A stretch of DNA of 45,014 nt from Clostridia bacterium. GTDB lineage: Bacteria > Bacillota > Clostridia > Oscillospirales > Acutalibacteraceae. Location: contig JAGBHV010000002.1 of assembly GCA_017935325.1 (NCBI GenBank), forward strand, positions 1 to 45,014. Direction: 5' to 3'. Below, one piece after another: positions 7,127 through 45,014 of the stretch; positions within the stretch are counted from its first letter, which is position 1; each line of letters starts with the position of its first letter. The position numbers and the translations under genes were made by a program. A model generated the notes under the pieces. That model searched no databases, was not told the origin of the DNA, and worked only from the letters and a program-made list of their open reading frames with translations.

Positions 7127-7259
7127 AACCCACCGAGATCCTTCGCAATGTTGCTTTTCTGAGTTTGTCCTTTCTCGTCTGTCATCCTTGAGCGTAAGCG
7201 AAGGATCTGACGAGAAAAATGCAATTTTTTGCAACATTACTCAAGGATGACGGTGGGTT
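7127..7259. repeat. Palindromic repeat copy A (interrupted by copy B)
   Basis: The outer arms AACCCACC (7127-7134) and GGTGGGTT (7252-7259) flank the two halves of the shared core: GAGATCCTTCGC on the left and CTCAAGGATGAC on the right. The core loop is split by about 90 bp, including an AATGTTGC/GCAACATT pair (about 7147-7154 and 7231-7238) and the complete copy B. A T-rich stretch follows, so it may also end the upstream transcript. Confidence 0.8.
7171..7217. repeat. Palindromic repeat copy B (nested in copy A)
   Basis: The perfect 9-bp arms TTTCTCGTC (7171-7179) and GACGAGAAA (7209-7217) enclose the core TGTCATCCTTGAG...GCGAAGGATCT. The core matches copies D and E almost exactly, while the arms are unrelated to theirs. 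Confidence 0.85.
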
Positions 7260-7344
7260 ATTTTGTGTGCTCGCAGAAAGACAGATGTGTAATCCGTGAA
7301 TGTAAGCAGGGGATTTTATTTGTCAAAGAAAGGAAATAGATTAA

Positions 7345-7644
7345 ATGTACTACGTTTACATTCTTACTAACAAGAGTGATAAAGTAATGTATATAGGTGT
7401 AACTAATGATTTGCAGCGTAGATTATACGAACATAAAAATGAACTTATTGGTGGATTTACAAAGAGATACCACATACATAAATTAGTTTATTTTGAAGAA
7501 TATTCAGACCCGCTTAATGCAATAGAGCGTGAAAAGCAACTTAAGGGTTTACTCAGAATAAAGAAAAACCGGATTGTAGAAACGATGAATCCTGAATGGA
7601 ACGATTTGAGTTTTAAACTTTTTCCGGGAGTTTTTGAAATATAA
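7345..7644 (+). CDS. Small GIY-YIG endonuclease family protein
   Basis: A 99-residue single-domain GIY-YIG (URI-type, COG2827-like) protein. The signature reads YYVYILTNKSDKVMYIGVTN at residues 2-21. The catalytic-site Arg segment DLQRRLYEHK follows, then the metal-binding Glu region YFEEYSDPLNAIEREKQLKG and the conserved C-terminal NRIVETMNPEWNDL. The domain is complete and no residue expected for catalysis is obviously missing. Family members nick or cut DNA, but most of these small stand-alone proteins have no known job. The gene is monocistronic with a modest AGGA site. It lies between palindromic repeats of one family (7127-7259 on the left, 7672-7724 and 7774-7818 on the right). That placement recalls REP-associated transposase (RAYT) loci and suggests, by analogy only, that the nuclease acts on the repeats. 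Confidence 0.9.
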   Translation: MYYVYILTNKSDKVMYIGVTNDLQRRLYEHKNELIGGFTKRYHIHKLVYFEEYSDPLNAIEREKQLKGLLRIKKNRIVETMNPEWNDLSFKLFPGVFEI

Positions 7645-7671
7645 ATTTAATAATGATGTAAAAAATAACCG

Positions 7672-7724
7672 ATACACCCCAACGAGATTCTTCACTTTGT
7701 TCAAGAATGACCGTTGGGGTGTAT
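7672..7724. repeat. Palindromic repeat copy C
   Basis: The perfect 13-bp arms ATACACCCCAACG (7672-7684) and CGTTGGGGTGTAT (7712-7724) surround an inverted, diverged core (AGATTCTTC...CAAGAATGAC). The following TTTTTAG could make it the terminator of the GIY-YIG gene. Confidence 0.85.
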
Positions 7725-7773
7725 TTTTAGTTTTATGAAGTTTCTTGTCGACGTTATCAGTATGTGAAAAAAC

Positions 7774-7818
7774 AACCGCCCGTCATCCTTGAGCGTAAGC
7801 GAAGGATCTCGGGCGGTT
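7774..7818. repeat. Palindromic repeat copy D
   Basis: The perfect 9-bp arms AACCGCCCG (7774-7782) and CGGGCGGTT (7810-7818) enclose GTCATCCTTGAG...GCGAAGGATCTC. On the - strand it is followed by a T-run, so it probably also terminates the leucine-rich-repeat gene. Confidence 0.85.
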
Positions 7819-7858
7819 ATATTAGTTTAATATGGGGATAAAATAAATCTGATATATC

Positions 7859-10366
7859 TTAAGCGAAAAGGCTGAGAATAAAATTAAAAATTGCAACGAA
7901 GAACTGCCAGATTGCAACAAGGATTGCGGCTATATCAATTGTTGAAGATGAACCGGGTTCATCAGGAGTATCCGTTATGCCATTGTCTGTACTCGCAGAA
8001 TTTTCTTTCCATACCGCATAAAGCGTCATGTTTTCGGAGATGTTAATTTTTTCTCCTGCTTCATAGCTTGCTGATGTTGCGGAACTGTTTCTTGACCAGC
8101 CAAGGAATGTATATCCGCTTCTTGTGGGGACGGAGGAGGTGAGGTTTACCATGGTTTTAAGCCAAACTGCATAAAACGTTATATCTTTTGTTGGCGTATA
8201 TGATGAACCACATGAATATGCAGCGGTTGTTGCGCTGCTACTTGTTGCCCAGCCATCACAGTTAAGAGAAAAACTCTGTGAAGAAGGAGCGGCACTTCCT
8301 CCGTTTGCATTATACTTGATTTTTACAGTTTTTACAGGAGTAGGAAGTGTGGTTGAATTGCCTTTAACAACATCTGCTTTCTCGGAATCTATACTACCGC
8401 CGTTTGCATAGTAATTGATTGTATATATGTCTGTTTCTTGAACAATATTATGATTTTCGTTGCAAACTTTAAAAGTGATAGAATTAGTTTCTGCGTGATT
8501 TTTTGCTGTACAGTTAGCTGTAGTATTGCAAATTACAAGTTTTGATGAGCAGTTGTAAAAACAGTTGTTGCCTATTGATTTGAAACCTGTAGGAATATGG
8601 ATCTGAGCAAGATTTGTACAACCGGAGAAAGCAGTTGCACCTAATGAACGTTCGAAATATTCATCGTCATTGTTTTTTATAATAACTGTCTGGAGTGCTG
8701 TGCAACCTTTAAATGCACTGGAACCAATTTCTTTACAATCTGCAGGGATAGTAACATTTTTCAGTGCTTTGCAATCCTGAAACGTCATACTTTCAATTGT
8801 AAGTTCAGATATTTCGCCCTCCTTAAAAGTTATAGTTTCGAGTGCAGGGCAGGAAATGAAAGCACAGCTGCCGATTAGTGTAACAGTTGACGGAATGCTT
8901 ACTGATTTTAACGAAGAACAATACGAGAATGCCCGTTTTCCGATTGTCGTAAATCCTTCGGGGATAACTATTGTTTGAAGAGACGAACATTTTTGGAAAG
9001 CGTATCCGCTTAAAGTACGCTCGAAATATTCATCGTTATTGTTGTTTATGGTAATGGTCTGGAGATTTGTACAGCCTGAGAAAGCACTGGAACCGATATT
9101 TTGACAATTTTTGGGTATGGTAATGCTTTTCAGTGACGTACAACCACTGAATGCACTCATGTTGATAGTTAATGCGGTCTTTTCGTCCTCGGTAAATGTT
9201 ACAGATTGGAGGGCGGTGCAATTATAGAATGTACCATCACCAATAGATGTCATGGTTTTGGGGAATTTTACTGTTTTTAGTAATGTACATTCCTTAAAAG
9301 CATATTGACCAATAGCCGTGAATCCCTCGGGTATAATTACGGAAGTAAGACTTACGCATTTTTCGAAAGCATTCTTGCTGATAGTTCTTTTGATGCTTTT
9401 ATCGGAATTTTCTTTAATCGTTAATGATGATAATTTACTGCAACCACTGAATGCACCATAGTTGATATTTTGATAGTTTGATGGGATTGTGATGCTTTTA
9501 AGTGCAGTGCAGTTGCTGAAGGCATAACCGTCTATTTGTGCATTGTTAGAACCACCTTCTGTAAGAGTAACAGATTCCAATCGGATACAATTAAAGAACA
9601 CATATATATCGATTGTTCTCATAGTTTTAGGAATGGTAACTGTTTTAAGATAATTGCAGTTGGCAAAAGCGTATCTGCCAATTGTGTAAAATCCCTCAGG
9701 AATAACAATTGATGTAAGTGCAGAGCAGTTATAAAAAGCATTACTTCCGATTGTTCTTTCAAATGCAGTATTAGAATTTTCTTTTATTGTAACTTTCTGA
9801 AGCTTTGTACAACCGGAAAAAGAATCGAAGCTGATTGTGCTGTAGTTTGCCGGAATTGTTATTTCTTTTAGTGCAGTACATTTCAGAAACGCATATGCAT
9901 CTATTGTAGCTGCAGCAGTGCCACCTTCTGCAATGCTTACAGTTTCCAATCTTATACATCCCGAAAATGTCTCCCAATCAATCAAGGTTAAGCTGCTGGG
10001 GAGGCTTGCCTTTTTAAGATAAGTACAATCACTGAAGGCACCACGTCCGATTTTATAATATCCTTCAGGAATAACAATTGAGGTTATGTCTGTGTTTTCT
10101 TTGAAACTATATTTCGCAATTTCTGTAACTTTATACCCATTGAGGGTTGAAGGAAAGATTATATCTGTTTCTGCGCCTGAATATCCGGTTATGACAGCAT
10201 TACTGCCGGAAATATTGTAAATCCAATTTCCTGATGTAAGTGCTTTTGACTCGATATTGAAAAGATCAGGCAAATCAAGACCCACGAGTCCTGACAATGG
10301 TGCTGCACAAAGAATGATCGTTAATGCAAGTGCAACTGACAAAATTTTGGACATGAAATTTTTCAT
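7859..10366 (-). CDS. BspA-like leucine-rich-repeat surface protein
   Basis: This 835-residue secreted protein has an N-terminal signal peptide (about residues 5-30). A long array of BspA/LRR_5 repeats (pattern AF..C..L..I.IP....I) follows from about residue 80 to 640. Two Listeria-Bacteroides-type (InlB B) repeats come next, near 660-790 (YYANGGS, GYTFLGWSRN, TLYAVW). The protein ends in a Ser/Asp-rich linker and a hydrophobic, aromatic-rich tail at about 812-835. The LRR array is a higher-order repeat: four copies of exactly 123 residues start at residues 97, 220, 343 and 466, each beginning IPEG(Y/F)..IG. No LPXTG motif is present. BspA-like proteins mediate adhesion to host or other cells, and a similar role is inferred here. 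It is the last gene of a three-gene - strand unit, 28 nt after a membrane protein gene, with an AGAGGAG site. Confidence 0.9.
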   Translation of the reverse strand: MKNFMSKILSVALALTIILCAAPLSGLVGLDLPDLFNIESKALTSGNWIYNISGSNAVITGYSGAETDIIFPSTLNGYKVTEIAKYSFKENTDITSIVIPEGYYKIGRGAFSDCTYLKKASLPSSLTLIDWETFSGCIRLETVSIAEGGTAAATIDAYAFLKCTALKEITIPANYSTISFDSFSGCTKLQKVTIKENSNTAFERTIGSNAFYNCSALTSIVIPEGFYTIGRYAFANCNYLKTVTIPKTMRTIDIYVFFNCIRLESVTLTEGGSNNAQIDGYAFSNCTALKSITIPSNYQNINYGAFSGCSKLSSLTIKENSDKSIKRTISKNAFEKCVSLTSVIIPEGFTAIGQYAFKECTLLKTVKFPKTMTSIGDGTFYNCTALQSVTFTEDEKTALTINMSAFSGCTSLKSITIPKNCQNIGSSAFSGCTNLQTITINNNNDEYFERTLSGYAFQKCSSLQTIVIPEGFTTIGKRAFSYCSSLKSVSIPSTVTLIGSCAFISCPALETITFKEGEISELTIESMTFQDCKALKNVTIPADCKEIGSSAFKGCTALQTVIIKNNDDEYFERSLGATAFSGCTNLAQIHIPTGFKSIGNNCFYNCSSKLVICNTTANCTAKNHAETNSITFKVCNENHNIVQETDIYTINYYANGGSIDSEKADVVKGNSTTLPTPVKTVKIKYNANGGSAAPSSQSFSLNCDGWATSSSATTAAYSCGSSYTPTKDITFYAVWLKTMVNLTSSVPTRSGYTFLGWSRNSSATSASYEAGEKINISENMTLYAVWKENSASTDNGITDTPDEPGSSSTIDIAAILVAIWQFFVAIFNFILSLFA
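8603..10078 (-). repeat. Four tandem 369-bp (123-codon) coding repeats
   Basis: The encoded units (residues 97-219, 220-342, 343-465, 466-588) are all exactly 123 residues, with conserved landmarks: IPEG at the start, ITIP near position 73-76 and a (R)(T/S)(I/L) landmark at about 108-110. A fifth unit begins (IPTGFKSIG) and is cut short. Confidence 0.9.
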
Positions 10367-10394
10367 ATAAACTCCTCTTTAAAATATTTGAAAT

Positions 10395-11042
10395 TTAATC
10401 TTCACAAGCTATATAGCGGTGATTATAGCTGTCCACATATTCTCCTGCATAGCCGGAAGGATGTAGTACAATATAACCACCTCTGTCAATCTGCAAATCT
10501 CCGCTTGCGCTGCTCATAACATAGAAGGTTTCCCCTGAACTCAAATCGCGGACATATTCCGGCGGTGTTCCGCTGCTTCCTGTTGAAGGCGGTTCAAGAG
10601 GTCTGATAATAGTGATGAGAATAATGAAAAATGCCATGAACACAAGGCTCGCTATCAAAAGACCTGAAATTATGCCTCCAAGTATATGCAGATATGAGAA
10701 TAACAGACCACCTATGGGACCGTATACCAAAAAATCCCACACTGCTACAATTACGCACATGACTGCGGTTAAAATGAAGATTATATTCATTGGCAATACA
10801 TGGTTGAAAACGGCGGCTATATTGAAAATTGTAGGAAAGAGTGCAACCATGATTATTTTTACAATAGTGAATGATTTTCTTCCTGATTGAGTAATAATTC
10901 CTCTGCACACTCTGATAAAAAAGATGTTTAACAGTACAAATAAAAGTACTCCGACGCAGATGAATATAAGTCCTGTTGTCGAGAGTTCTGATGTATCTCG
11001 GGACAGAAACTCTGAGATTTTATTCAGCATTGTTTTTGTCAA
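10395..11042 (-). CDS. Hypothetical multi-pass membrane protein
   Basis: A 215-residue protein with about four to five predicted membrane helices (segments around residues 22-48, 58-80, 84-110 and 112-148). A soluble C-terminal region of about 65 residues follows, beginning with a Pro/Ser/Gly-rich stretch (PLEPPSTGSSGTPPEY). It then has a short beta-rich segment (GETFYVMSS, GGYIVLHPSGYAGEYVD). I do not recognise the family. It overlaps the end of the upstream small membrane protein gene by 23 nt and lies 28 nt before the LRR surface protein gene, so all three are probably co-transcribed. It could help export, anchor or sense the LRR protein, but that rests only on position. Confidence 0.75.
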   Translation of the reverse strand: MTKTMLNKISEFLSRDTSELSTTGLIFICVGVLLFVLLNIFFIRVCRGIITQSGRKSFTIVKIIMVALFPTIFNIAAVFNHVLPMNIIFILTAVMCVIVAVWDFLVYGPIGGLLFSYLHILGGIISGLLIASLVFMAFFIILITIIRPLEPPSTGSSGTPPEYVRDLSSGETFYVMSSASGDLQIDRGGYIVLHPSGYAGEYVDSYNHRYIACED

Positions 11043-11382
11043 CTCCGTATTTGTTGAATGTGTAATTATCTTTACCTTTTATAAGTGTTATTAATGCCAT
11101 GAAAGTGTATCCGAGACCCTTAAAGCAAGCAATACAGTAAGAAAGAACGGGGATAGGTGCAATCATGCCGATGAGTGCCTTTTTCCAGTTGATATAGAAA
11201 AAAGACATATAACTGATAGGCATCAAGGTGAAAACACCCAAAACAAGAAGTATTGTGCCTCCGATGGGCTGATCAGCAATATCCCATATTCCTGTTGCAA
11301 GCATTACAATCAGCGTGATTACTGAAAGAACTCCGCCGATGATGAGCTGTTTAGTGATCTGTTTTTTTGTGTATGTTTTCAT
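11020..11382 (-). CDS. Hypothetical small membrane protein
   Basis: A 120-residue protein with about three membrane helices (near residues 11-33, 38-58 and 65-95) and a short charged C-terminus (GKDNYTFNKYGVDKNNAE). I recognise no family. It is the first gene of the three-gene - strand unit and overlaps the next gene by 23 nt. Its translation signal is odd: the only strong site (AAAGGAGG) is 32 nt upstream of the ATG, and a 6-bp hairpin lies in between (11393-11413). No in-frame alternative ATG, GTG or TTG fits that site better. Confidence 0.7.
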   Translation of the reverse strand: MKTYTKKQITKQLIIGGVLSVITLIVMLATGIWDIADQPIGGTILLVLGVFTLMPISYMSFFYINWKKALIGMIAPIPVLSYCIACFKGLGYTFMALITLIKGKDNYTFNKYGVDKNNAE

Positions 11383-11392
11383 TTCTTTTTTC

Positions 11393-11422
11393 TGTCGGTG
11401 CAGAAATCCGACAACCTCCTTT
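11393..11422 (-). promoter_or_regulatory. Ribosome binding site separated from the start codon by a hairpin
   Basis: On the - strand, AAAGGAGG (11422-11415) is followed by TGTCGG...CCGACA (11413-11393, 6-bp stem, 9-nt loop) and then GAAAAAAGAA before the ATG. Folding would shorten the effective spacing from 32 to about 11 nt. Confidence 0.5.
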
Positions 11423-11425
11423 GTT

Positions 11426-11452
11426 TTTATACTTTTTATTTATTTTCTGCAA
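11426..11452 (-). promoter_or_regulatory. Candidate promoter for the membrane-protein/LRR unit
   Basis: TTGCAG (11452-11447) and TATAAA (11431-11426) lie on the - strand with 15-nt spacing, which is short. Nothing better is visible upstream. Confidence 0.35.
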
Positions 11453-11485
11453 CATAATGATAAACTAATGGTAATAATTTGTCAA

Positions 11486-11520
11486 TACTAAAAGTAAGTT
11501 TTTGAATGTTACTGATAGTA
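11486..11520. promoter_or_regulatory. Pair of TACT-N3-AGTA operators upstream of the XRE gene
   Basis: Two dyads, TACTAAAAGTA (11486-11496) and TACTGATAGTA (11510-11520), lie exactly 24 nt apart. They sit in the divergent region just before a TATAAT (11522-11527) for the XRE gene. The spacing of just over two helical turns and the position suit binding sites for the encoded repressor. Confidence 0.55.
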
Positions 11521-11546
11521 TTATAATAAGATGAGGGGGCGGTAGG

Positions 11547-11918
11547 ATGAAAAAGAATATCAATCTTGAAATCGGCGAGAGAGTAAGGCTTACACGTGTT
11601 TCGCGTGGCTTTTCACGTGATGAACTTGCAGAAATTCTTAACATATCAACTCTTTTTCTCGGGTATATCGAATGCGGTCAACGCGGAATGTCACTTACTA
11701 CTTTGCAGAATATGTGCAGAATTCTTAATGTTTCGGCAGATTACCTTTTGCTCGGAAAAGAAAAAGAGGGAACAGTTGACGATGATATTATTACTGCAGT
11801 AAAAGAATTGCCCGAAGATTACAAACCGCTTGCGCTTGATGCTGTGAACAACCTTAAAAAGACAATTGCAAAAGTCACAAAGGTAGCATATAAAAACACA
11901 TTGAATGAGAAACAGTAA
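11547..11918 (+). CDS. XRE-family (Cro/CI-type) transcriptional regulator
   Basis: A 123-residue protein with an N-terminal helix-turn-helix of the XRE/HTH_3 type. Residues about 8-66 run IGERVRLTRVSRGFSRDELA, then LNISTLFLGYIECGQRGMSL, then LNVSADYLLLG. A roughly 50-residue C-terminal helix-rich part (DIITAVKELPEDYKPLALDA) follows and probably dimerises. Small regulators of this form are common in Clostridia. It is divergent from the membrane-protein/LRR unit, and two TACT-N3-AGTA dyads lie in the shared intergenic region. Control of its own gene and perhaps of the divergent unit is therefore a reasonable inference. It is single-gene and ends at its own terminator. Confidence 0.88.
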   Translation: MKKNINLEIGERVRLTRVSRGFSRDELAEILNISTLFLGYIECGQRGMSLTTLQNMCRILNVSADYLLLGKEKEGTVDDDIITAVKELPEDYKPLALDAVNNLKKTIAKVTKVAYKNTLNEKQ

Positions 11919-11947
11919 GTTTATTACATGCTGTTTCTTATTTTTTT
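11909..11947 (+). terminator. Terminator of the XRE gene
   Basis: GAAACAG (11909-11915) pairs with CTGTTTC (11931-11937), and TTATTTTTTT follows. The stem starts inside the last codons of the gene. Confidence 0.65.
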
Positions 11948-11988
11948 AATAAATATTCATAATTAATGTAATATTTTTCCTATTTCTC

Positions 11989-12017
11989 TTGACAAGAAAG
12001 TGATATCAGTATAAAAT
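11989..12017 (+). promoter_or_regulatory. Sigma-A promoter of rny-ymdB
   Basis: A perfect TTGACA (11989-11994) and TAAAAT (12012-12017) are separated by 17 nt. The leader is about 100 nt and contains a small CTACA/TGTAG hairpin followed by T-rich sequence (about 12049-12068), which might modulate readthrough. Confidence 0.8.
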
Positions 12018-12125
12018 AACATAGATGGTGTATATCTGAAAATGGGTCTACATCATGTAGTGTTTTTATTCTGAGTTCTTTTGATGATATGATTTAAAAG
12101 AGTTTACGTAAAGGAGGTGCGATCT

Positions 12126-13685
12126 ATGGAGATTAAGTTAGTTGTTGCAATTATTATCGCCGTTGCTGCTGCAGTGGTTTTTGGTGTGGCAGGTTACATC
12201 ATCGGCGGTTTACATAGAAAAAAGGTTGCAGAAGCCACAATCGGTTCTGCAAACAAAGAAGCTGCAAGAATTGTCAACGAAGCTTTAACAGAGGCTGAAA
12301 CTAAAAAGAAGGAAGCCATTCTTGAAGCCAAGGACGAAATTCACAAGCAGAGAACAGAAACGGAGAAGGAACTCCGTGAAAGACGTTCTGAAGTTCAGCG
12401 ACAGGAACGCAGATTGATTCAGAAAGAGGAATCTCTCGATAAGAAGACAGATTCTCTTGAGAAAAAAGACGAAATCCTCAGTAAAAAACTGAAGGATGCT
12501 GAAGACAGATTAATCGAAATAGATAGCATCAAGAGAAGTCAGTTTGAAATGCTCGAGAAAGTTTCCGGTTATACAAAAGAGCAGGCAAAGGATCATTTGC
12601 TTAAATCTCTTGATGAGGAACTGACAAGAGAAAAATCTCTTAAAATAATGGAATACGAGCAGAAACTTAAGGATGAGCAGGATACTATGGCAAGAGAAGT
12701 TGTTGCAACTGCAATTCAGCGTTGTGCAGCAGACCATGCCGCAGAAGCAACGGTAAGTGTTGTTGCTCTTCCCAGCGATGAAATGAAAGGTCGCATTATC
12801 GGCCGTGAAGGCAGAAATATCAGAACACTCGAAACTATTACAGGCGTTGACCTTATTATTGATGATACACCTGAAGCAATTACAGTTTCAAGCTTTGACC
12901 CTGTAAGACGTGAAGTCGCAAGGCTCACACTTGAAAAACTCATTACTGACGGACGCATTCACCCCGCACGTATTGAGGAAATGTTTGAAAAATCACGCAG
13001 AGAAGTAGAAATCACAATCAAGCAGACAGGTGAGAGAGCTCTCATCGATGCAGGTGTCAACAATGTTCATCCTGAAATTGTCAAACTTATCGGTAAGTTG
13101 AGATACCGCACAAGTTACGGCCAGAACGTGCTTAATCACGCTCTTGAAGTATCTTACATTGCAGGTCTTATGGCAGCTGAAATCGGTGCTGATGTAAAAC
13201 AGGCAAAACGTGCAGGTCTTCTTCACGATATCGGTAAAGCTCTTGACCATGAAATGGAAGGCTCTCACATTCAGCTCGGCGTTGAGTATGCTAAAAAGTA
13301 TAAAGAAAACGATGCAATCGTTCATGCTATTGCTGCTCACCACGGTGAAATCGAAGCAAGAACAATCGTTGCATCTCTTGTTCAGGCAGCTGATGCAATT
13401 TCTGCAGCAAGACCCGGCGCAAGAAGAGAAAATGTTCAGAACTATATCAAGCGTCTTGAAAAGCTTGAAGAAATTTCAAATTCATTTGAGGGTGTTGAAC
13501 GCTCATTCGCAATTCAGGCAGGCCGTGAGGTACGTATTATGGTTAAACCTGAGGTTATTTCAGATGACGGCATGACTCTTATTGCAAGAGAAATTGTTAA
13601 GAAAATTGAAAGTGAGCTTGAATACCCGGGACAGATTAAGGTTAATATTATCAGAGAAAACCGTGCTGTCGATTATGCAAAGTAA
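12126..13685 (+). CDS. rny: Ribonuclease Y
   Basis: RNase Y is the membrane-tethered endoribonuclease that starts bulk mRNA decay in many Firmicutes. At 519 residues it has the family length. The order is: an N-terminal membrane helix (about 4-27), a long charged coiled coil (about 35-190), a KH RNA-binding domain ([16 protein letters not shown], near 205-225), and the HD phosphohydrolase domain with the catalytic His-Asp pair in [13 protein letters not shown]. Start choice: AAGGAGGTG sits 6-7 nt before the ATG at 12126. A GTG 9 nt upstream lies inside that site and is rejected. It is followed after a terminator-like hairpin by ymdB, the same order as in Bacillus. Confidence 0.96.
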
Positions 13686-13698
13686 TTAATTTACGATT

Positions 13699-13729
13699 GT
13701 GACTGCCGAATTTTCGGCAGTCACTTTTT
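13699..13729 (+). terminator. Terminator-like hairpin between rny and ymdB
   Basis: GTGACTGCCGAA (13699-13710) pairs with TTCGGCAGTCAC (13713-13724), with TTTTT after it. ymdB begins 18 nt later with no obvious promoter, so partial readthrough is likely. Confidence 0.8.
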
Positions 13730-13746
13730 AGTTAGGAGAAGTGTAA

Positions 13747-14514
13747 ATGAGAATACTTATTCTCGGAGACATTGTAAGTGATATCGGATGCGAACACATC
13801 AGAGAAAAATTACCCGGATTGAAAAAAAGTGAAAATATAGATTTCTGCATTGCAAACGGCGAGAATTCTGCTTCAGGAAACGGAATAACTCCTTTTTCTG
13901 CGCAATATCTTTTTGATAGCGGTGTGGATATTATTACAACGGGTAATCACGTTTACCGTCGCAGGGTAATTTATAACTTTCTTGATGAAAGGCTTGACAT
14001 TGTAAGACCGGCGAATTATTATGAATATAATCCCGGAAGAGGTTATGCCGTAGCTGACCTCGGCAGGGTTAAAATAGGTGTTATAAATCTTGCAGGAACT
14101 TATGCTATGGACAGCGTTGATAATCCGTTCAGAGTAGTTGAAAAGGTTCTTGATAATATCCGCGATTGCAAAATTAAAATTGTTGATTTTCATGCGGAAG
14201 CAACAAGCGAAAAAAGAGCAATGGGCTTTTTTCTTGACGGAAAAGTTACATGTGTTTTCGGCACGCACACTCATGTCCAGACGGCAGATGAGCAGATTTT
14301 GCCCCATGGCACGGCGTATATTACAGATGTGGGTATGTGCGGCGTAAAAGACAGCGTTCTCGGTGTTGAAAAAAATATAATAGTGAAAAAATATTATGAT
14401 TCAATGCCCGCTTTATTTGATGCGGCAAGCGGGGAATGTATGATTAACGGCCTGGTTATTGATGTTGAAAATTCAAGCGGTAAGGTAACTGAAATAAAGC
14501 GGATTAATCTTTGA
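13747..14514 (+). CDS. ymdB: YmdB-family metallophosphoesterase
   Basis: A 255-residue calcineurin-like phosphoesterase of the TIGR00282/YmdB family, which acts on 2',3'-cyclic nucleotides. In Bacillus it influences biofilm and late adaptive gene expression. Motifs in order are: LILGDIVSDIG (residues 3-13, first metal Asp), NGENSASGNG (near 38), TTGNHVYRR (near 61), DFHAEATSEK (near 145), and GTHTHVQTADEQILPHGTAYITDVGMCG (from 172, split here as GTHTHVQTAD and GTAYITDVGM). All expected metal ligands are visible. A TTAGGAGAAG site lies upstream. It follows rny, matching the conserved pairing. Confidence 0.94.
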   Translation: MRILILGDIVSDIGCEHIREKLPGLKKSENIDFCIANGENSASGNGITPFSAQYLFDSGVDIITTGNHVYRRRVIYNFLDERLDIVRPANYYEYNPGRGYAVADLGRVKIGVINLAGTYAMDSVDNPFRVVEKVLDNIRDCKIKIVDFHAEATSEKRAMGFFLDGKVTCVFGTHTHVQTADEQILPHGTAYITDVGMCGVKDSVLGVEKNIIVKKYYDSMPALFDAASGECMINGLVIDVENSSGKVTEIKRINL

Positions 14515-14529
14515 CAGGGAGGAAAGAAA

Positions 14530-37652: not shown

Positions 37653-38518
37653 TGAAATTTTTTGATTTGCATTGTGATACAATCACGGAATGTTATGTGA
37701 AAAATAAAAAATTAAAAACGAACGACCTTGACATTTCTCTTGAAAAAGCAGAATGTATAGATAAATGGAATCAGGTTTTTGCAATATGGATGCCTGATGA
37801 ATTAAGAGGTAAAGAGGCTGAAGATTATTACTGCAAAGTTCTTGAAAAATTCAAGGAAGAATGTAAAGATGTAAAAGGTGCAATTCTTGCTGTTGAAGGC
37901 GGTTCTGCTCTGGCAGGTAAACTTGAAAACGTGGAAAAACTTTACCGCGACGGAGTTAAAATTATCACTCTTACCTGGAATAAAGAAAACGAGCTTGCAA
38001 GCGGTTGTTTTTCTGACGAAGATAAAGGACTGACTTCTTTCGGAAAAGAAGCAGTAAAGGAAATGGCGAAATCCGGCATTGTTCCCGATGTTTCACATCT
38101 TGGTGAAAAAGGCTTTTACGATTTGTGCGAAGCAACTGATTTTCCGTTTATTGCGAGTCATTCTGACGTATACGCCCTTGAAAATCATCCGAGAAATTTA
38201 AAGGACGAACAGATTAAAATAATCATTGAAAGAAAAGGTCTTATAGGACTTAATTTTTACAATAAGTTTTTAGGCGAAGGTAATTCGGTGCAGAAGCTTC
38301 TCGACCATGCAAAACACATTCTTCTTCTGGGCGGAACGGATGTGCTTGCTCTCGGCAGCGATTTTGACGGTTGCACAATCAACGAAGAAATCAAAGGTAT
38401 AGAAAAAATGCCTGCACTTTATAATGCTTTTTATTCTTATTTCGGCAGAACGCTGGCAGATAAGATATTTTTTGAAAATGCTGATAACTATTTCAAGCGT
38501 CAGGTATTTACTAAATAA
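37649..38518 (+). CDS. Membrane-type dipeptidase (peptidase family M19)
   Basis: A 289-residue renal-dipeptidase-like zinc hydrolase. It begins KFFDLHCDTITECYV, with the metal-binding His-x-Asp (near residue 7). Then come the bridging-Glu region LAVEGGSALAG (near 74), IVPDVSHLGEKGF and FPFIASHSDVYAL (further zinc His residues), and LALGSDFDGC near the C-terminus. The family hydrolyses dipeptides, often tolerating D-residues. There is no signal peptide, so it should be cytosolic. ATG codons at 37649 and 37652 are both possible, behind GAGGTGGA. It overlaps yraN by 4 nt. Confidence 0.92.
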   Translation: MMKFFDLHCDTITECYVKNKKLKTNDLDISLEKAECIDKWNQVFAIWMPDELRGKEAEDYYCKVLEKFKEECKDVKGAILAVEGGSALAGKLENVEKLYRDGVKIITLTWNKENELASGCFSDEDKGLTSFGKEAVKEMAKSGIVPDVSHLGEKGFYDLCEATDFPFIASHSDVYALENHPRNLKDEQIKIIIERKGLIGLNFYNKFLGEGNSVQKLLDHAKHILLLGGTDVLALGSDFDGCTINEEIKGIEKMPALYNAFYSYFGRTLADKIFFENADNYFKRQVFTK

Positions 38519-38539
38519 AAAAATTATGTTACAATAAAA

Positions 38540-38548
38540 TGATATAAC
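38540..38548 (+). promoter_or_regulatory. Possible extended -10 element for thrC
   Basis: TGATATAAC fits an extended -10 (TGnTATAAT-like) 21 nt before the thrC ATG. No convincing -35 was seen. Confidence 0.3.
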
Positions 38549-38569
38549 ATTTATTAAAGAGGGATGTTT

Positions 38570-40063
38570 ATGAAGTACACAAGTACAAGAAACAACGCAG
38601 TGTCTGTTGACGCTGCAAAAGCAATTTCTCAGGGCATCAGTGAAGACGGAGGTCTTTTTGTACCAATGTCTTTTCCGCAGATTTCACTTGATGAAATCAA
38701 AAAGATGTCAGAAATGTCTTACATCGAAAGGGCAAAGAAAGTTCTGTCACTTTACCTTACTGATTTTACAGAGGAAGAAATTTCATCCTGCGTAAACGGT
38801 GCATATGAGGAAGGTAAATTTGATAGTGAAAAAGTAGCTCCTGTTGTACCGTTCAATGACGAAGCATATATCCTTGAACTTTTCAGAGGACCTACATGTG
38901 CTTTTAAAGATATGGCGCTTCAGCTTCTGCCTTATCTTCTTACAGTTTCTGCAAAGAAAACTGCAGACGGCAAAGAAATTATCATTCTTGTTGCAACATC
39001 AGGTGACACAGGTAAAGCTGCACTTGAAGGCTTCAAAGATGTTGACAAAACAAAAATTCTTGTTTTCTATCCGTCAGACGGCGTAAGCCCCATGCAGAAA
39101 TTGCAGATGACAACACAGGAAGGCTCTAATGTAAGCGTATGTGCAATTGAAGGCAACTTTGACGATGCACAGAGCGGTGTTAAAAAGATTTTCACAGATA
39201 AAGAAATCGGCGCAAAATTAGCTGAAAACAATATGCAGTTCTCTTCTGCAAACTCAATCAACTGGGGCAGACTTGTTCCCCAGGTTGTGTACTACATTTC
39301 TGCATACTGCGACCTTATTGCAGACGGCAGAATTGTTGCAGGTGAAAAAATCAACATCGTTGTTCCCACAGGTAACTTCGGTAACATCCTTGCAGCATAC
39401 TATGCAAAACAGATGGGACTTCCCGTAAATAAATTTATCTGCGCATCAAACGCAAATAATGTTCTTACAGATTTCATCACAACAGGTGAATACAATAAAA
39501 ACCGTGAATTCTTCACAACAACTTCTCCGTCAATGGATATCCTCATTTCATCAAACCTTGAAAGACTTCTCTATCACCTTACAGGTTCAGATGATAAAGC
39601 AGTTGCAAAGATGATGAATGAATTGAATACTGACGGCAAATATACAGTAAGCGAAGAAGTTCTTAATGCCCTTAAAGCAGATTTCGATGCAGGCTGCTGT
39701 TCAGATGATGAAGTAAGCGCAACTATCGCAAAGAGCTTTAAAGAAAAGAACTATCTTCCCGATACTCACACATCAGTTGCTATTAAAGTTTACGAAGATT
39801 ATGTAAAGAGAACAGGCGATGACACAGTAACGGTTATTGCTGCCACTGCTAACCCCTATAAATTCTCAAAAGCAGTTCTCGGTGCAGTTGAAGAAGACTA
39901 TGTATGTTCGGACGAATTTGAAACAGTAAGCGAACTTGCCCGGGTTTCCGGCGTAAAATGTCCCGAACAGCTGGCAACTCTTAAAGGAAAAGAGCCGAGA
40001 TTTACGGAAATATGCAAGAAACCCGAGATGACCGAGGTCGTCTTTAAAATGTTAGGAATCTGA
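38570..40063 (+). CDS. thrC: Threonine synthase
   Basis: Threonine synthase converts O-phosphohomoserine to threonine with PLP. The 497-residue protein starts MKYTSTRNNAVSVDAA. The ATG at 38570 is chosen because AAAGAGGG lies 6 nt before it; an in-frame ATG 6 nt upstream touches the site directly. The PLP-binding Lys is in GPTCAFKDMALQLLPYLL (near 110), with ATSGDTGKAALEGF (near 146, phosphate binding), VPTGNFGNILAAYYAKQMGL (near 265) and a long C-terminal domain typical of the yeast/E. coli-like class. The other thr genes are not adjacent. Confidence 0.96.
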   Translation: MKYTSTRNNAVSVDAAKAISQGISEDGGLFVPMSFPQISLDEIKKMSEMSYIERAKKVLSLYLTDFTEEEISSCVNGAYEEGKFDSEKVAPVVPFNDEAYILELFRGPTCAFKDMALQLLPYLLTVSAKKTADGKEIIILVATSGDTGKAALEGFKDVDKTKILVFYPSDGVSPMQKLQMTTQEGSNVSVCAIEGNFDDAQSGVKKIFTDKEIGAKLAENNMQFSSANSINWGRLVPQVVYYISAYCDLIADGRIVAGEKINIVVPTGNFGNILAAYYAKQMGLPVNKFICASNANNVLTDFITTGEYNKNREFFTTTSPSMDILISSNLERLLYHLTGSDDKAVAKMMNELNTDGKYTVSEEVLNALKADFDAGCCSDDEVSATIAKSFKEKNYLPDTHTSVAIKVYEDYVKRTGDDTVTVIAATANPYKFSKAVLGAVEEDYVCSDEFETVSELARVSGVKCPEQLATLKGKEPRFTEICKKPEMTEVVFKMLGI

Positions 40064-40066
40064 CGT

Positions 40067-40234
40067 TCAGCCGCAAGTGCCGTTTGATTTGAATGTTGAA
40101 CAGCAAGTTTCGCTTGACTTGCAAGCTGTGCTTGTGCCTACATTAATGTGACCTGCAACACATTTCTGTCCGCCCTCGTTGTAAACGCAGTTTTTTGCGT
40201 TGCAAGAGATTTCTTTGATAAGATCTTTTTCCAT
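40067..40234 (-). CDS. DUF1540 domain-containing Cys-rich protein
   Basis: A 55-residue protein with the DUF1540 pattern: ISCNAKNCVYNEGGQKC, then AGHINVGTSTACKSSETCC. There are seven cysteines. Such proteins are common in Clostridia and presumably bind metal, but their role is unknown. The start at 40234 follows GGAGGCGAAATAAA; an ATG 36 nt upstream lacks a site. It is convergent with thrC with only 3 bp between stop codons and no hairpin between, so the two transcripts must overlap. Confidence 0.88.
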   Translation of the reverse strand: MEKDLIKEISCNAKNCVYNEGGQKCVAGHINVGTSTACKSSETCCSTFKSNGTCG

Positions 40235-40331
40235 TTTATTTCGCCTCCGTTTTAAATTTGCTTTTTTCAAAGCAGTTCTATTGTTCGCAGATTTTGATTA
40301 ATTATGCAATGTAAAACAGTGTATTAACGTA

Positions 40332-40440
40332 GGGGCGTCGTTTCGGCGCCCGATAATAAAAAACTGAAACCTAACTCATATCAGTGAGTTTTGGGAAACG
40401 GTACGGGAAACCCGTACCCTACGATGTTACTTCAGTTTTA
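40332..40440. repeat. Hairpin-rich repeat upstream of the metallophosphoesterase gene
   Basis: GGGCGTCG/CGGCGCCC (40333-40351, one G-U) is followed by an outer pair AAAACTGAA (40360-40368) and TTCAGTTTT (40431-40439). That pair encloses AACTCA/TGAGTT (about 40373-40390) and GGTACGGG/CCCGTACC (40400-40418). The layout is an outer stem with two inner hairpins and resembles other intergenic repeats here (shared GTAGGG). Confidence 0.7.
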
Positions 40441-40472
40441 TGGTGCATAAGTTTTTACGAAAGGAATTTACC

Positions 40473-41159
40473 ATGTCGTTGTATGCAATAGGTGACACTC
40501 ATCTGTCTTTCGGCTCGGATAAACCGATGGATATTTTCCGCGGTTGGCAGAACTTTGAAGAAAGACTTAAAAAGAATTGGAACAACCTGGTAACTGATGA
40601 CGATACCGTAGTTATCGCAGGCGATATAACATGGGCAATGAACATTGAGGGCGCGAAAGAAGATTTCAGATTTCTTGATAATTTAAAGGGCAAAAAGCTT
40701 ATCATGAAAGGCAATCATGATTATTGGTGGAGTACGAAAAAGAAAGCCGATGAGTTTTTTGAAAAAAACGGTTTTTCGACACTCAATATTCTGTTCAACA
40801 ATGCGTACAGAATCGGTGATGTTGCGGTGTGCGGTTCACGTGGCTGGTTCTATGACGGAGAGAAAGACAAGAAGGTTCTTCTTCGTGAAGCGGGCAGACT
40901 TAAAATGTCCATAGCTCAAGCGAAAAAGCTTGGCGGTGAGCCTGTTGTTTTTCTGCATTATCCGCCGCTGAATCAGGAAACGGTATGTGAAGAGATTTAC
41001 AGCGTGCTTGTTGATGAGGGAATCAGGCGTTGTTATTATGCTCATCTTCACGGGCCATCTCATAATTATGCGTTCACAGGAGAACGTGACGGTATAAAAT
41101 TTTCATTAATTTCAGGGGATTTCCTCAACTTTTGCCCAAAACTCGTTGAAAAATGTTGA
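40473..41159 (+). CDS. Metallophosphoesterase (calcineurin-like)
   Basis: A 228-residue cytosolic phosphoesterase. Metal-site motifs are: AIGDTHLSFGSDKPM (Asp/His near 7-9), VIAGDITWAMNI (near 50), MKGNHDYWWSTKKK (near 78), FLHYPP (near 165) and AHLHGPSHNYAF (near 195). It belongs to a small Firmicutes group often annotated only as metallophosphoesterase; the substrate is unknown. The start at 40473 follows AAAGGA and gives the family N-terminus. It is a single gene preceded by a hairpin repeat and followed by the tig promoter. Confidence 0.9.
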   Translation: MSLYAIGDTHLSFGSDKPMDIFRGWQNFEERLKKNWNNLVTDDDTVVIAGDITWAMNIEGAKEDFRFLDNLKGKKLIMKGNHDYWWSTKKKADEFFEKNGFSTLNILFNNAYRIGDVAVCGSRGWFYDGEKDKKVLLREAGRLKMSIAQAKKLGGEPVVFLHYPPLNQETVCEEIYSVLVDEGIRRCYYAHLHGPSHNYAFTGERDGIKFSLISGDFLNFCPKLVEKC

Positions 41160-41195
41160 CTTTTTATGACGAATTGACGATATGTTAACAAAAGG

Positions 41196-41224
41196 TTGAA
41201 ATTCAGGAAAATATTTGATAAAAT
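41196..41224 (+). promoter_or_regulatory. Sigma-A promoter of tig(-clpP-clpX)
   Basis: TTGAAA (41196-41201) and TAAAAT (41219-41224) are separated by 17 nt, 42 nt before the ATG. No heat-shock CIRCE or CtsR-like site was recognised nearby. Confidence 0.75.
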
Positions 41225-41266
41225 AATTCAGTTAATATTTACTTAAGTAAAATGGAGGACTTAAAA

Positions 41267-42718
41267 ATGAGCTTGAAATCAGCAAACAAAGTCGAAACAA
41301 ACGTATATTCTGTTGAAGTTGAAATTTCTGCAGAACAGCTCAAAGAAGCTACTGTAAAAGCTTACAACCAGCAGAAGAAAAAAATTGCACTTCCCGGCTT
41401 CCGTAAAGGTAAAGCTCCCAAGGCAATGATTGAAAAAATGTATGGCGAAGGCTTCTTCTACGAAGATGCTCTCGACATTCTCTATCCCGACGTTGTAGGC
41501 GAAGCAATCGAAGAAGCAAAGCTTGAAATCGTTGCAGCTCCCTACGATGTTGAAATCACAAAGCTTGATAAAGACGGTGCAGCACTCACACTTAAGGTTA
41601 CTGTAAAACCCGATGTTGAACTGGGCGAATATAAAGGCCTTAAAGCAGAAAAAGAATCTGCAGAAGCAACTGATGAAGAAGTAGATGCAGAAATCAAAAA
41701 TCTCCTTGAAAGAAACTCACGTCTTGTAACAGTTGAAGACAGAGCAGTTGTTTCAGGTGACATCACAGACATCAACTTTGAAGGTTTTGTTGACGGCGTT
41801 GCATTCGACGGCGGTAAAGGCGAAAACTTTGACCTTGAAATCGGTTCAGGTCAGTTTATCCCCGGTTTTGAAGACCAGATTATCGGCAAAAACGCAGGCG
41901 ATGAATTTGATGTTAACGTAACATTCCCCACAGAATATGCTCCTGAACTTGCAGGTAAAGATGCAACTTTCAAAGTTAAAGTTAACGAAATCAAATCAAA
42001 AGAATATCCCGAGCTTGACGATGAATTTGCAAAAGACGTAAGCGAATTCGATACACTTGATGAACTCAAAGCAGACATCAAAGCAAAAATCGGTGAAAGC
42101 AAAGCTCAGAGAGCAAAAGATGCTTTTGAATCAGCTCTTCTCAAACAGGTTTGCGAAGGTGCAACTGTAGAAATTCCTCAGGTTATGATTGATAATAAAG
42201 CTGACGAAATGAAACAGCAGACAGAACAGCAGATGGCTCAGCAGGGTCTGGCACTTGATATCTACCTTCAGTACATGGGTCTCTCAATGGATAAATACAT
42301 GGAAGACCTTAAAGCTCAGGCAGAAATTCAGGTTAAGACTCGTCTTGCTCTTGAAAAAATCGTTGAAGTTGAAAATATCGAAGCAACAGATGCAGATGTT
42401 GATGCAGAATTTGCAAAATACGCTGAAATGTACAAAATGGATGTTGATAATCTCAAGAAGTTCATCAATCCTGAAGAACTCAAAAAAGACCTTGCAATCG
42501 GTAAGGCTGTAGATTTCATCGTTGAAAATGCAAAAGTAGGTAAACCTGCAGCAAAGAAAGCTACAAAGAAAGCAGCTGCTGACGGCGAAGAAAAGCCCGC
42601 AAAGAAAACAACTGCTAAAAAAACAACAGCTAAAAAAGCAGCTGACGGCGAAGAAAAGGCAGCAAAAAAACCTGCAGCAAAGAAAACAACAAAGAAAAAG
42701 GAAGAAGCTGCTGAATAA
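41267..42718 (+). CDS. tig: Trigger factor, with a Lys/Ala-rich C-terminal extension
   Basis: Trigger factor is the ribosome-associated chaperone and prolyl isomerase that meets nascent chains. The 483-residue protein has the N-terminal ribosome-binding domain with the signature GFRKGKAPKAMIEKMYGEGF (near 45), the FKBP domain (near 155-240: GDITDINFEGFVDGVAF, GSGQFIPGFEDQIIG) and the C-terminal chaperone arms (about 245-425). The last 60 residues (424-483) are an added basic tail of Lys, Ala and Thr with two ADGEEK units, resembling histone H1 tails. The start at 41267 lies 7 nt after GGAGG; an upstream ATG overlaps that site. It precedes clpP and clpX as in most Firmicutes. Confidence 0.96.
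   Translation: MSLKSANKVETNVYSVEVEISAEQLKEATVKAYNQQKKKIALPGFRKGKAPKAMIEKMYGEGFFYEDALDILYPDVVGEAIEEAKLEIVAAPYDVEITKLDKDGAALTLKVTVKPDVELGEYKGLKAEKESAEATDEEVDAEIKNLLERNSRLVTVEDRAVVSGDITDINFEGFVDGVAFDGGKGENFDLEIGSGQFIPGFEDQIIGKNAGDEFDVNVTFPTEYAPELAGKDATFKVKVNEIKSKEYPELDDEFAKDVSEFDTLDELKADIKAKIGESKAQRAKDAFESALLKQVCEGATVEIPQVMIDNKADEMKQQTEQQMAQQGLALDIYLQYMGLSMDKYMEDLKAQAEIQVKTRLALEKIVEVENIEATDADVDAEFAKYAEMYKMDVDNLKKFINPEELKKDLAIGKAVDFIVENAKVGKPAAKKATKKAAADGEEKPAKKTTAKKTTAKKAADGEEKAAKKPAAKKTTKKKEEAAE
42536..42715 (+). repeat. Low-complexity Lys/Ala/Thr coding tail of tig
   Basis: The tail repeats (A)KK(A/T)(T/A) units and contains two near copies of AADGEEK. The DNA is correspondingly repetitive (GCAAAGAAA-type units) and could slip. 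Confidence 0.8.
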
Positions 42719-42763
42719 TTAAGCAAAATTCATCCTAAAATGTGTTAGTAAGGAGGCATCATT

Positions 42764-43345
42764 ATGAGCTTAGTACCATATGTAGTAGAACAAACAAACA
42801 GAGGAGAGCGTTCATACGATATTTTTTCACGTCTTTTGAGTGACAGAATTATTGTTCTCTCTGATGAAGTTAATGACGCAACAGCAAGTATTGTTGTGGC
42901 ACAGTTACTTTTCCTTGAAGGCCAGGATGCCGATAAAGACATCAGCCTTTACATCAACAGCCCCGGCGGCTCCGTAACAGCAGGTCTTGCAATTTACGAC
43001 ACAATGCAGTACATCAAGTGCGATGTTTCAACAATTTGCATGGGTATGGCAGCAAGCATGGGTGCATTCTTGTTGTCATCAGGTGCAAAGGGTAAAAGAT
43101 TTGCACTTCCTAACAGCGAAATCATGATTCACCAGCCTCTCGGCGGTGCAAAAGGTCAGGCAACTGAAATTGAAATCGCTGCAAAGCATATCCTTAAGAC
43201 TAAAGAAAATCTCAACAGAATCCTTTCCGAAAACACAGGTAAACCTATCGATGTAATCGCAAGAGATACTGACAGAGATAATTTCATGAGCGCACAGGAA
43301 GCAATGGAATACGGTCTTATTGATAAGGTAATTTATAAGAGATAA
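42764..43345 (+). CDS. clpP: ATP-dependent Clp protease proteolytic subunit
   Basis: ClpP forms the 14-subunit proteolytic chamber that works with ClpX and other Clp ATPases. The 193-residue protein is standard length. The catalytic Ser is in [15 protein letters not shown] (near 97), the His in [20 protein letters not shown] (near 122) and the Asp in [16 protein letters not shown] (near 171). The N-terminal propeptide-like region ([20 protein letters not shown]) is intact. GGAGG lies before the ATG. clpX follows 16 nt later. Confidence 0.98.
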
Positions 43346-43361
43346 CGGAGAGTATTTTATA

Positions 43362-44621
43362 ATGTCTAAAAATGATGGCACAAAAAGTTCCGTCTTTTGC
43401 TCATTCTGCGGTAAAAGTCAGGCGCAAGTGCGTAAAATGATTGCCGGTCACGGTGTTTATATCTGCAACGAGTGCGTTGATCTCTGCCGTAGTATTATTG
43501 AGGAGGAGATGGGCACTAAACGCAGAGCTCGCAAAAGCGAAGTGAAAGAAAAACCTGAATTGCCGAAGCCTCGTGAAATCAAGGAGAAGCTTGATGAATA
43601 CGTTATCGGTCAGGAAGATGCAAAGGTAGTTCTCAGCGTTGCAGTGTACAATCATTATAAGCGCATTAATTCTCTTGACGACGGCGATGTAGATATTCAG
43701 AAGAGTAATGTTATTATGCTCGGCTCAACAGGTGTAGGTAAAACTATGCTTGCACAGACACTTGCAAGAATTCTTGATGTTCCGTTTGCTATTGCAGATG
43801 CAACAACTCTTACTGAAGCAGGTTATGTGGGCGAAGACGTTGAAAACATTCTTTTAAGACTCATTCAGGCTGCTGATTTTGATATTGAGAAAGCTGAAAG
43901 AGGCATTATCTACGTTGACGAAATCGACAAAATTGCAAGAAAATCAGAAAATCCGTCTATCACACGCGACGTCAGCGGTGAAGGTGTTCAGCAGGCTCTT
44001 CTGAAAATTCTTGAAGGCACGGTTGCCAATGTTCCTCCCCAGGGCGGAAGAAAGCACCCTCAGCAGGAATTTATTCAGATTGATACTACCAATATCCTGT
44101 TTATCTGTGGCGGTGCATTTGACGGAATTGAAAAAATCATAGAAAAACGCACAGGCAATAACGGTGCTTTAGGTTTTGGTGCTGATGTAAAGGGCAAAGA
44201 AGAAAGAAAGTCTGCAAACATCAGAAATAAAGTTATTCATCAGGACCTTGTAAAGTTTGGCCTTATCCCTGAAATTGTAGGACGTCTTCCTATAGTTACT
44301 GTTCTTCAGGAGCTTGATGAAGATGCTCTCGTTCAGATTATGACCGAACCGAAAAATGCACTTGTAAAACAGTACAAAAAACTGTTTGGAATGGATGAAG
44401 TTGACCTCAACTTTGATGAAGATGCACTTCATGCTATTGCAAAGAAAACTCTTGAAAAAGAAACAGGCGCACGAGGACTTCGCTCAATTACGGAAAATAT
44501 CCTGCTTCCCATAATGTATGATATTCCGTCTGATGAAACAGTTCAGAGTGTGCAGATTACGAAAGAGTGCGTTGAAAACGGCGAAAAGCCTATAGTTATG
44601 TTCAAAGAACACGCAGAATAA
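43362..44621 (+). CDS. clpX: ATP-dependent Clp protease ATP-binding subunit ClpX
   Basis: ClpX is the AAA+ unfoldase that feeds ClpP. The 419-residue protein has the N-terminal zinc-binding domain ([17 protein letters not shown], then [10 protein letters not shown]; four Cys, near 12-42). Walker A is [18 protein letters not shown] (near 120), Walker [14 protein letters not shown] (near 183). The pore-loop region [14 protein letters not shown], sensor and IGF-type ClpP-loop region ([14 protein letters not shown], near 266) and the C-terminal small domain ([11 protein letters not shown]) all follow. It ends the tig-clpP-clpX unit before a 12-bp hairpin. Confidence 0.98.
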
Positions 44622-44638
44622 TTTTCATAAGTTCTTTT

Positions 44639-44672
44639 AATCCCTGTCAGTTATTTCCTGACAGGGATTTCT
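44639..44672 (+). terminator. Hairpin after clpX
   Basis: AATCCCTGTCAG (44639-44650) pairs perfectly with CTGACAGGGATT (44658-44669). The T-run is short, so terminator strength is uncertain. Confidence 0.65.
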
Positions 44673-44744
44673 GCTGTCATTGATGTGAGTTGTTATTGTA
44701 ACTCGTCAGTCCCGTAGTTAGTTTTTTAAATTATAATTTTCAGC

Positions 44745-44811
44745 GAAAAATCCCCTCAGTCAGAATCGCAGATTCTGACATCTACCCTTGATAATGCAAG
44801 GGGAGTTTTTC
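44745..44811. repeat. Three-way-junction repeat (AAAATCCCCT...GGGGAGTTTTT)
   Basis: An outer pair AAAAATCCCCT / AGGGGAGTTTTT encloses a perfect GTCAGAATC/GATTCTGAC hairpin (44759-44779). It also encloses a CCCTTG/CAAGGG hairpin (44785-44802) that competes with the outer stem. No gene is visible in 44622-45014, which otherwise holds only this element, the clpX hairpin and palindromic copies E and F. Confidence 0.7.
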
Positions 44812-44903
44812 ATCTATCACTGATATGAATTTCATAACAAATTGCAGGTACAATGCCATAAATGGTTTTCAACAGATAAATTATAATTTATATGTGGCTA
44901 ACC

Positions 44904-44955
44904 TTGCCATTTCGCTGTCATCCTTGAGCGAAAGCGAAGGATCTCAAAATGGCAA
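44904..44955. repeat. Palindromic repeat copy E
   Basis: The 9-bp arms TTGCCATTT (44904-44912) and AAATGGCAA (44947-44955) enclose CGCTGTCATCCTTGAG...GCGAAGGATCTC. The core is nearly the same as in copies B and D, 37 kb away, with different arms. Confidence 0.85.
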
Positions 44956-44967
44956 CACATAAAGCAT

Positions 44968-45014
44968 TTCCAAACGAGATTCTTCGCTGTCGCTCGAGAA
45001 TGACACGTTTGGAA
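44968..45014. repeat. Palindromic repeat copy F (reaches the window edge)
   Basis: The 9-bp arms TTCCAAACG (44968-44976) and CGTTTGGAA (45006-45014) enclose the inverted core AGATTCTTCGC...GAGAATGACA. The arm may continue past the window end. Confidence 0.8.

Follow-up and report, generated by a model that had tools for sequence, protein, structure and literature searches.

A REP-type palindrome at the tips of gene-end hairpins and its association with small GIY-YIG nuclease genes

The window, that is, the whole stretch of 45,014 nucleotides analysed here, belongs to a draft genome of 1.97 Mb (G000), of which it is contig C54. It carries hairpins in which a conserved palindromic core is closed by a pair of complementary arms. 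Four of these hairpins surround a short gene encoding a GIY-YIG nuclease, and a further pair lies at the end of the window. The region 7859-10366 encodes a large leucine-rich repeat protein of the BspA type that contains a Listeria-Bacteroides repeat domain. The features considered below are listed here.

7127..7259, minus strand: outer core hairpin, split by a nested unit, with arms AACCCACC/GGTGGGTT
7171..7217, plus strand: inner (nested) core hairpin, with arms TTTCTCGTC/GACGAGAAA
7345..7644, plus strand: GIY-YIG nuclease gene, 99 aa (Pfam PF01541, E 6.4e-17), the proposed partner enzyme of the palindromes
7672..7724, minus strand: core hairpin with arms ATACACCCCAACG, with A-rich and T-rich flanks
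7774..7818, plus strand: core hairpin with arms AACCGCCCG
44878..45014, no strand assigned: miniature element of two inverted core hairpins with fixed arms, the far end of which lies outside the window
44904..44955, plus strand: first hairpin of the miniature element
44968..45014, minus strand: second hairpin of the miniature element

The core is a REP-type palindrome, composed of an unpaired GTC tag, a stem that starts with AT, a small loop, the matching stem that ends with AT, and a short tail. A preliminary description of the window had reported six copies of it, each opened by its own arm and closed by the exact reverse complement of that arm, and on re-checking all six were correct in arms as well as in coordinates. 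For the four hairpins within 7125-7830, none of 200 shuffled sequences folds as well, and for each of the two within 44895-45014 only 2 of 200 do so (RNA folding). The count of six separate copies has to be amended, since the hairpins at 44904-44955 and 44968-45014 are the two halves of one miniature element, and 7127-7259 is a single copy only in the sense that its core is interrupted by a second, nested core. The arms of the four hairpins in 7127-7818 are unique.

The core pattern has 73 exact matches in the window's genome, and the reversed pattern has none. Among the 73, judged by eye, 65 carry the two arm pairs of the miniature element and 8 carry other arms; the single ones among these 8 are mostly preceded by A-rich and followed by T-rich sequence, as in terminators. 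In the miniature element the two cores are 60 bp apart and in opposite orientation, the arms are fixed (TTGCCATTTTG and ATTTCCAAACG), and AAATTATAATTT, which is its own reverse complement, is found by eye near both ends; at 44878-44889 it makes up the outside part of the window's element. Many copies are located at contig ends, and that of the window is located at the window's end. Like MITEs and REPINs, the second pair of the window is thus a repeated element of two hairpins, and many near-identical short copies without a gene are found, as in MITEs (87 of 128 distinct hairpins in the genus have the fixed arms, a class assigned by our own letter rule). Unlike MITEs and REPINs, it has AAATTATAATTT ends and paired arms around each core. 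The AAATTATAATTT ends seem to be common to several different repeats (L087, around 1955-2045, and many other loci of the genus), and the core-bearing miniature element would be one of these. At eight loci (L037, L042, L063, L065, L067, L068, L071 and L072) the miniature element has a variant form, with a core and AACACCGCCG-like arms in place of one hairpin, next to a remnant of the old arm.

Could the varying arms be a part of the element itself? The exact core was found in 5 of 60 related genomes, that of the window included, all of them in the window's genus, from which seven genomes were searched. The genus loci hold 128 distinct copies, 87 with the arms of the miniature element and 41 without; after removal of three rows that were not cores, 38 were analysed, which include orthologs as well as 11 rows (by eye) of a miniature-element variant with other arms. 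Arms were measured without gaps, allowing G-T pairs and at most two skipped bases per side, and compared with 1000 shuffles of the right flank. The mean arm of the 38 copies is 9.32 bp, with at least 7 bp in 32 of them, while the shuffles have a mean of 3.86 and a maximum of 5.5. There are 18 arm types, defined as distinct right-arm 6-mers, and when each type is represented by one row (n = 18) the mean is 9.78 bp and 16 have at least 7 bp, against a shuffled mean of 3.19 and a maximum of 5.28. In the 32 copies with arms of at least 7 bp, the right arm begins at an offset of 0 in 27 and of 1 in 5, and of the nine bases outside the arms an average of 5.6 are A on the left and 4.9 are T on the right.

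The core was also sought in one genome per species, which yielded at least 118 core-bearing stretches, and many phyla are represented among the 80 titles listed; the core occurs in bacteria of many kinds. For 139 core copies at 115 loci of other bacteria, the mean arm is 2.19 bp against 2.15 for shuffled flanks, and arms of at least 7 bp occur once, where 0.96 is expected. A universal arm rule for the core was consequently rejected, and the arms are a feature of the window's genus. Being diverse within the genus and absent outside it, the arms do not belong to the element: in the genus the core sits at the tip of gene-end hairpins, and the arms belong to the place. The claim that the arms change while staying complementary thus stands for the copies outside the miniature element, whose arms fall into 18 types and pair far better than shuffled flanks, and so does the suggestion that some paired stem is retained, whatever, almost, its sequence may be. 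It fails for the miniature element, and it is to this element alone that a few families with fixed arms, the outcome named beforehand as refuting, applies.

The gene surrounded by the four hairpins leads to a second line of evidence. At E 0.001 it is the only match in the seven genus genomes, so that the gene is present in one of seven; exact cores are present in five of seven. Among the 80 listed core loci, the genomes of 50 were searched for relatives of the GIY-YIG protein at the same threshold, and relatives were found in 37, with up to 15 matches per genome, and none in the other 13. An NCBIfam search with the protein returned nothing above a cut-off. We then analysed 50 nuclease loci, 30 from the genome search and 20 picked from its list, and, as controls, 19 stretches taken from those genomes. 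Allowing at most two mismatches in the left half of the core, and with some matches overlapping, 68 core matches were found in the 39.6 kb within 400 bp of the gene and 2 in the other 104.5 kb. The core itself occurs on both sides of the gene at only 18 of the 50 loci, which weakened the idea of a nuclease linked through this core alone and called for a more general formula.

Comparison of the flanks at loci without the core revealed other palindromes of the same plan, and these are described by the formula [CT]GTCAT-xyz-loop-z'y'x'-ATC, referred to below as the strict formula (some matches overlap). It has 129 matches in the 52.6 kb within 400 bp of the gene, the gene included, against 12 in the 104.5 kb farther away and 8 in the 60.0 kb of the 19 controls. 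Such palindromes are present on both sides of the gene at 31 of 50 loci and on at least one side at 41. Eleven other tags put into the formula gave 0 to 4 matches each, except GAGAT with 27, which are taken to be the same palindromes read on the other strand. At the nine loci without a strict match within 400 bp, looser GTC-tagged palindromes were seen by eye in seven, leaving out L323 and L324, which have the lowest-scoring relatives. There is only partial order in how the nearest palindrome is oriented: plus in 35 of 46 cases upstream and minus in 27 of 46 downstream. In addition, 6 of 398 genomes of the window's phylum, that of the window included, have a protein match at E 1e-15, and a strict palindrome lies within 400 bp at four of the five other loci.

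Plasmids provide a further set. The GIY-YIG protein has matches in 32 plasmid records, of which 16 were picked to span organisms and analysed. Strict palindromes lie within 400 bp of the gene at 11 of the 16 loci, with 45 in the 12.8 kb near the gene against 11 in the 16 kb farther away, some overlapping. The other five (L429, L430, L438, L439 and L441, Sinorhizobium meliloti among them) have no strict match, and looser palindromes of the CGTCAC or CGTCGC type were seen by eye at such loci. Matches close to the published CGTC-tagged REPs, of the form CGTCAT...ATCCA or alike, were found in Azospirillum lipoferum, Neisseria, Aeromonas, Photobacterium and several Rhizobiaceae. Azospirillum lipoferum, Neisseria and Sinorhizobium meliloti are named among the CGTC hosts in the parts of Di Nocera and others (2013; PMC3733652) that deal with these repeats. 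In Azospirillum the GIY-YIG gene is located between sufB and sufC. On a Planktothrix plasmid (L427) the nuclease gene is located between a type IIL restriction gene and the DISARM gene drmA. Taken together, most of the GIY-YIG relatives examined are beside or between palindromes of the formula, usually of one stem type.

That uniformity can be put in numbers. In the 66 loci (the 50 and the 16 from plasmids), 40 have matches on both sides of the gene, and both sides have the same stem type in 38 of the 40, with TCT and CCT pooled. The residues of the nuclease appear to track the palindrome type. A motif G[W/L/M], made of the two residues after a conserved K, was discovered on the first set, where 40 of 51 proteins are scorable: it is carried by 19 of the 20 proteins whose palindromes have YCTGA stems and by 1 of the 20 whose palindromes have another stem. 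In the further loci (5 from the phylum and 16 from plasmids, 15 of the 21 scorable) it is present in 4 of 4 with YCTGA and 1 of 11 with other stems (P 0.0037, relatedness ignored). The plasmid palindromes had been viewed, but the motifs of their proteins had not yet been read, when the YCT class of stems was narrowed to YCTGA; with the wider YCT class, counted by hand, the figures are 20 of 23 vs. 0 of 17 in the first set and only 4 of 9 vs. 1 of 6 in the further loci. L295 and L432 have CCC stems, yet carry the GW motif; no motif could be read in L278 and L319, and stem labels in this comparison were confined to loci with a strict match. On a tree of the proteins, in which 28 of 48 inner branches have support under 80, the stem types require 17 changes against 21.2 for shuffled labels, and none of 200 shuffles is as low (six labels were assigned by eye). 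The TGC group gives the strongest signal, with 0 of 500 shuffles as low (seven rows, three labelled by eye), and the YCT group alone is not clearly clustered, with 41 of 500 as low.

Which known systems are comparable? GIY-YIG homing nucleases and the UPF0213 proteins (PDB 1zg2) share the GIY-YIG domain, but the gene described here is flanked by palindromes, and its similarity to 1zg2 is weak (E 0.0012). The CGTC-tagged REPs, which include the neisserial dRS3 and the rickettsial RPE-4 and RPE-6, are described by Di Nocera and others (2013) from five phyla, apparently with no dedicated transposase and none associated, according to the parts of that paper devoted to them (PMC3733652). As characterised there, they resemble the present palindromes in the CGTC or TGTC tag, in the A-T pairs at the first two stem positions, in shortness and in a mostly intergenic location. 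The base before GTC is T or C in most genus copies and G or A in some, while the searches with the strict formula and in plasmids contained the tag, which is therefore present there by construction; the A-T pairs are seen in the GTCAT...ATC of the core. The formula of the published REPs has a stem of 8-9 bp and a loop of 4-5 nt; in the fold of the CCT-type core, 6 plus 2 pairs are formed around an internal bulge, and the loop has 4 nt. Differences from the families as presented in PMC3733652 are the arms outside the core in the genus, the associated GIY-YIG gene, and the tail, which in most published families is CCA and in the window's genus is CT or CC; CCA-like tails do occur in several plasmid records. 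Given this tail, the core is a relative, and not a member, of the four published CGTC families.

REPtrons, the GTAG REPs with their RAYT gene, are alike as small palindromes beside the gene of a DNA-cutting enzyme, with many gene-free copies, as far as they are treated in PMC3733652; unlike in REPtrons, the flanked gene here encodes a GIY-YIG protein (PF01541) and not a tyrosine transposase. The string GIY is absent from the main text of PMC3733652. No paper combining GIY-YIG with dRS3 was found in the published literature searched, and GIY-YIG combined with REPIN led, by title, to papers on restriction enzymes only. GIY-YIG beside RAYT or the string CGTC occurs in several papers, by title on fungal mitochondrial genomes and other subjects; in the text available of one (PMC9465073) the terms meet only in one gene list. 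In the available text of a 2025 REP survey (PMC12306157) CGTC is found only in a reference and GIY is not found, and papers matching the letters of the core are unrelated by title. The preliminary statement that no described element follows this rule is therefore to be narrowed: the core itself obeys most of the CGTC REP formula as laid out in PMC3733652, and neither the flanking GIY-YIG gene nor the placement at hairpin tips was met in the published literature searched, mostly by title.

We suggest, with a probability of roughly two in three, that a REP palindrome driven by a nuclease, and settled or kept in the tips of gene-end hairpins, explains the constant core with its varying arms. From the association, which is observed, we infer mobilisation. 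The nuclease would recognise its own palindrome and cut at or near the tag, the cutting would drive the copying of the palindrome, and the copies would land in, or be kept in, the tip of a terminator hairpin. Copies at a tip would survive because the stem is still paired and the gene end still works, which would leave a conserved core with arms that are well matched but differ from place to place. Where hairpins have A- and T-rich edges, they probably act as terminators; a simple terminator scan of 7100-7860, which allows loops of 3-8 only, found none. Against the explanation count the presence of the gene in one of the seven genus genomes, although five have exact cores, and the 13 of 50 core-bearing genomes in which no relative was found at E 0.001.

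The main rival takes the gene as a guest of the palindromes and not as their mover: the GIY-YIG gene would be a homing parasite that lands on REP palindromes. Homing nucleases typically have a GIY-YIG domain of the kind that Pfam finds in the protein of the window. Cores persist in congeners that lack the gene, and the palindromes bracket the gene as insertion between paired palindromes would leave them. By itself, however, homing gives no account of the multiplication of the palindromes, and we regard this explanation as unlikely, though to be taken seriously; the many gene matches (up to 15) in some core-bearing genomes do not decide the matter.

A second alternative, to which we give a similarly low probability, relies on terminator turnover alone and holds that gene-end hairpins are often replaced, by recombination or fresh duplication, the core being a loop type that happens to be handed on. 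Orthologous gene ends bear on it directly. Six relatives were compared at the C6 site, one (G004) at the C10 site and three at the window site; there, as at sites B and D, the compared relatives lack a core at the corresponding position, and their hairpin is mostly unlike. At site 1 the arms are common to G000 and G004, G006 has a core with other arms, and G002 and G003 have core-free hairpins. At site E the arms of G006 and G003 are the same, with the core tag degraded in G003, and G000, G002, G005 and G001 differ. In most or all of the relatives compared at sites 1, B, C6, C10, D and E the hairpins are different, so that arms and hairpin are often replaced together, a point against the nuclease-driven reading. 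Gene-end hairpins, then, turn over fast in the genus, with the core as a guest in their tips. The unlike, core-free hairpins at C6, C10, the window site, B, D and E favour turnover as the explanation.

The nested unit bears on both explanations. The unit in 7127-7259 has a second, diverged copy on another contig of the same genome (G000:C25), within other outer flanks. The two copies are homologous up to the ends of the outer core and unlike outside, in favour of arms that belong to the place. Their inner arms differ by a paired change from C-G to T-A, in favour of turnover. Plain insertion into a tip does not explain the inner hairpins' own arms, which counts against the nuclease-driven reading. 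A second nested case was noticed at L070, around 1830-1910 (G002), where a core hairpin with ATAATCCCTGATG arms lies inside the tip of another core; no clean empty site was found for it.

Two sites speak against turnover alone. At site A the arms GCCACCG are the same in three species (G004, G000 and G002) while the core drifts. At site 2 (G000:C59, around 5 kb) the arms CACCACCG/CGGTGGTG are common to five species and are kept while the core changes its state and orientation: it is on the minus strand in G004 and G002, on the plus strand in G000 (degraded) and G003, and absent from G006, where a core-free hairpin, AACACCACCGG-AAT-CCGGTGGTGTT, has both arms. The hairpin is thus independent of the core. 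A tree of a nearby 1235-bp stretch makes G006 and G003 sisters and does not separate the branching of G000, G004 and G002; with G006 sister to the core-bearing G003, site 2 fits gain or loss of the core, and inversion or two insertions, alike. The comparison with empty sites proposed at the outset shows both arms without a core at this site and unlike hairpins at most others.

The same site counts against the idea, raised in the preliminary description, that one arm is made at insertion as an inverted copy of the other by template switching: the complementarity of the arms is exact and nearly flush, as this would give, but G006 has both arms without a core (unless it was lost there) where four other species have the same arms with one, and the 139 copies in other bacteria have no arms, so that we consider it very improbable.

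A wider reading may be ventured, tentatively and at slightly less than even odds: that small GIY-YIG nucleases, a large family, are the dedicated enzyme of CGTC-type REPs across bacteria, each reading its own stem, partly through the two residues after the K, with the palindromes spreading by settling in hairpin tips. A nuclease that is bracketed by palindromes in unrelated bacteria, with residues that appear to follow the type of palindrome, makes the question of the missing transposase, as it stands in the relevant parts of the 2013 paper (PMC3733652), directly testable, and the puzzle from which this analysis started has an answer in a fixed core with arms that belong to each host site.

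Beside the miniature element, at 44746-44816, the window apparently holds a member of a second repeated gene-end family, AAAATCCCC...TCAGAATC...GATTCTGA...GGGGAG. A stretch related to it has tens of matches in the genomes of the genus, and the copies differ in paired stretches.
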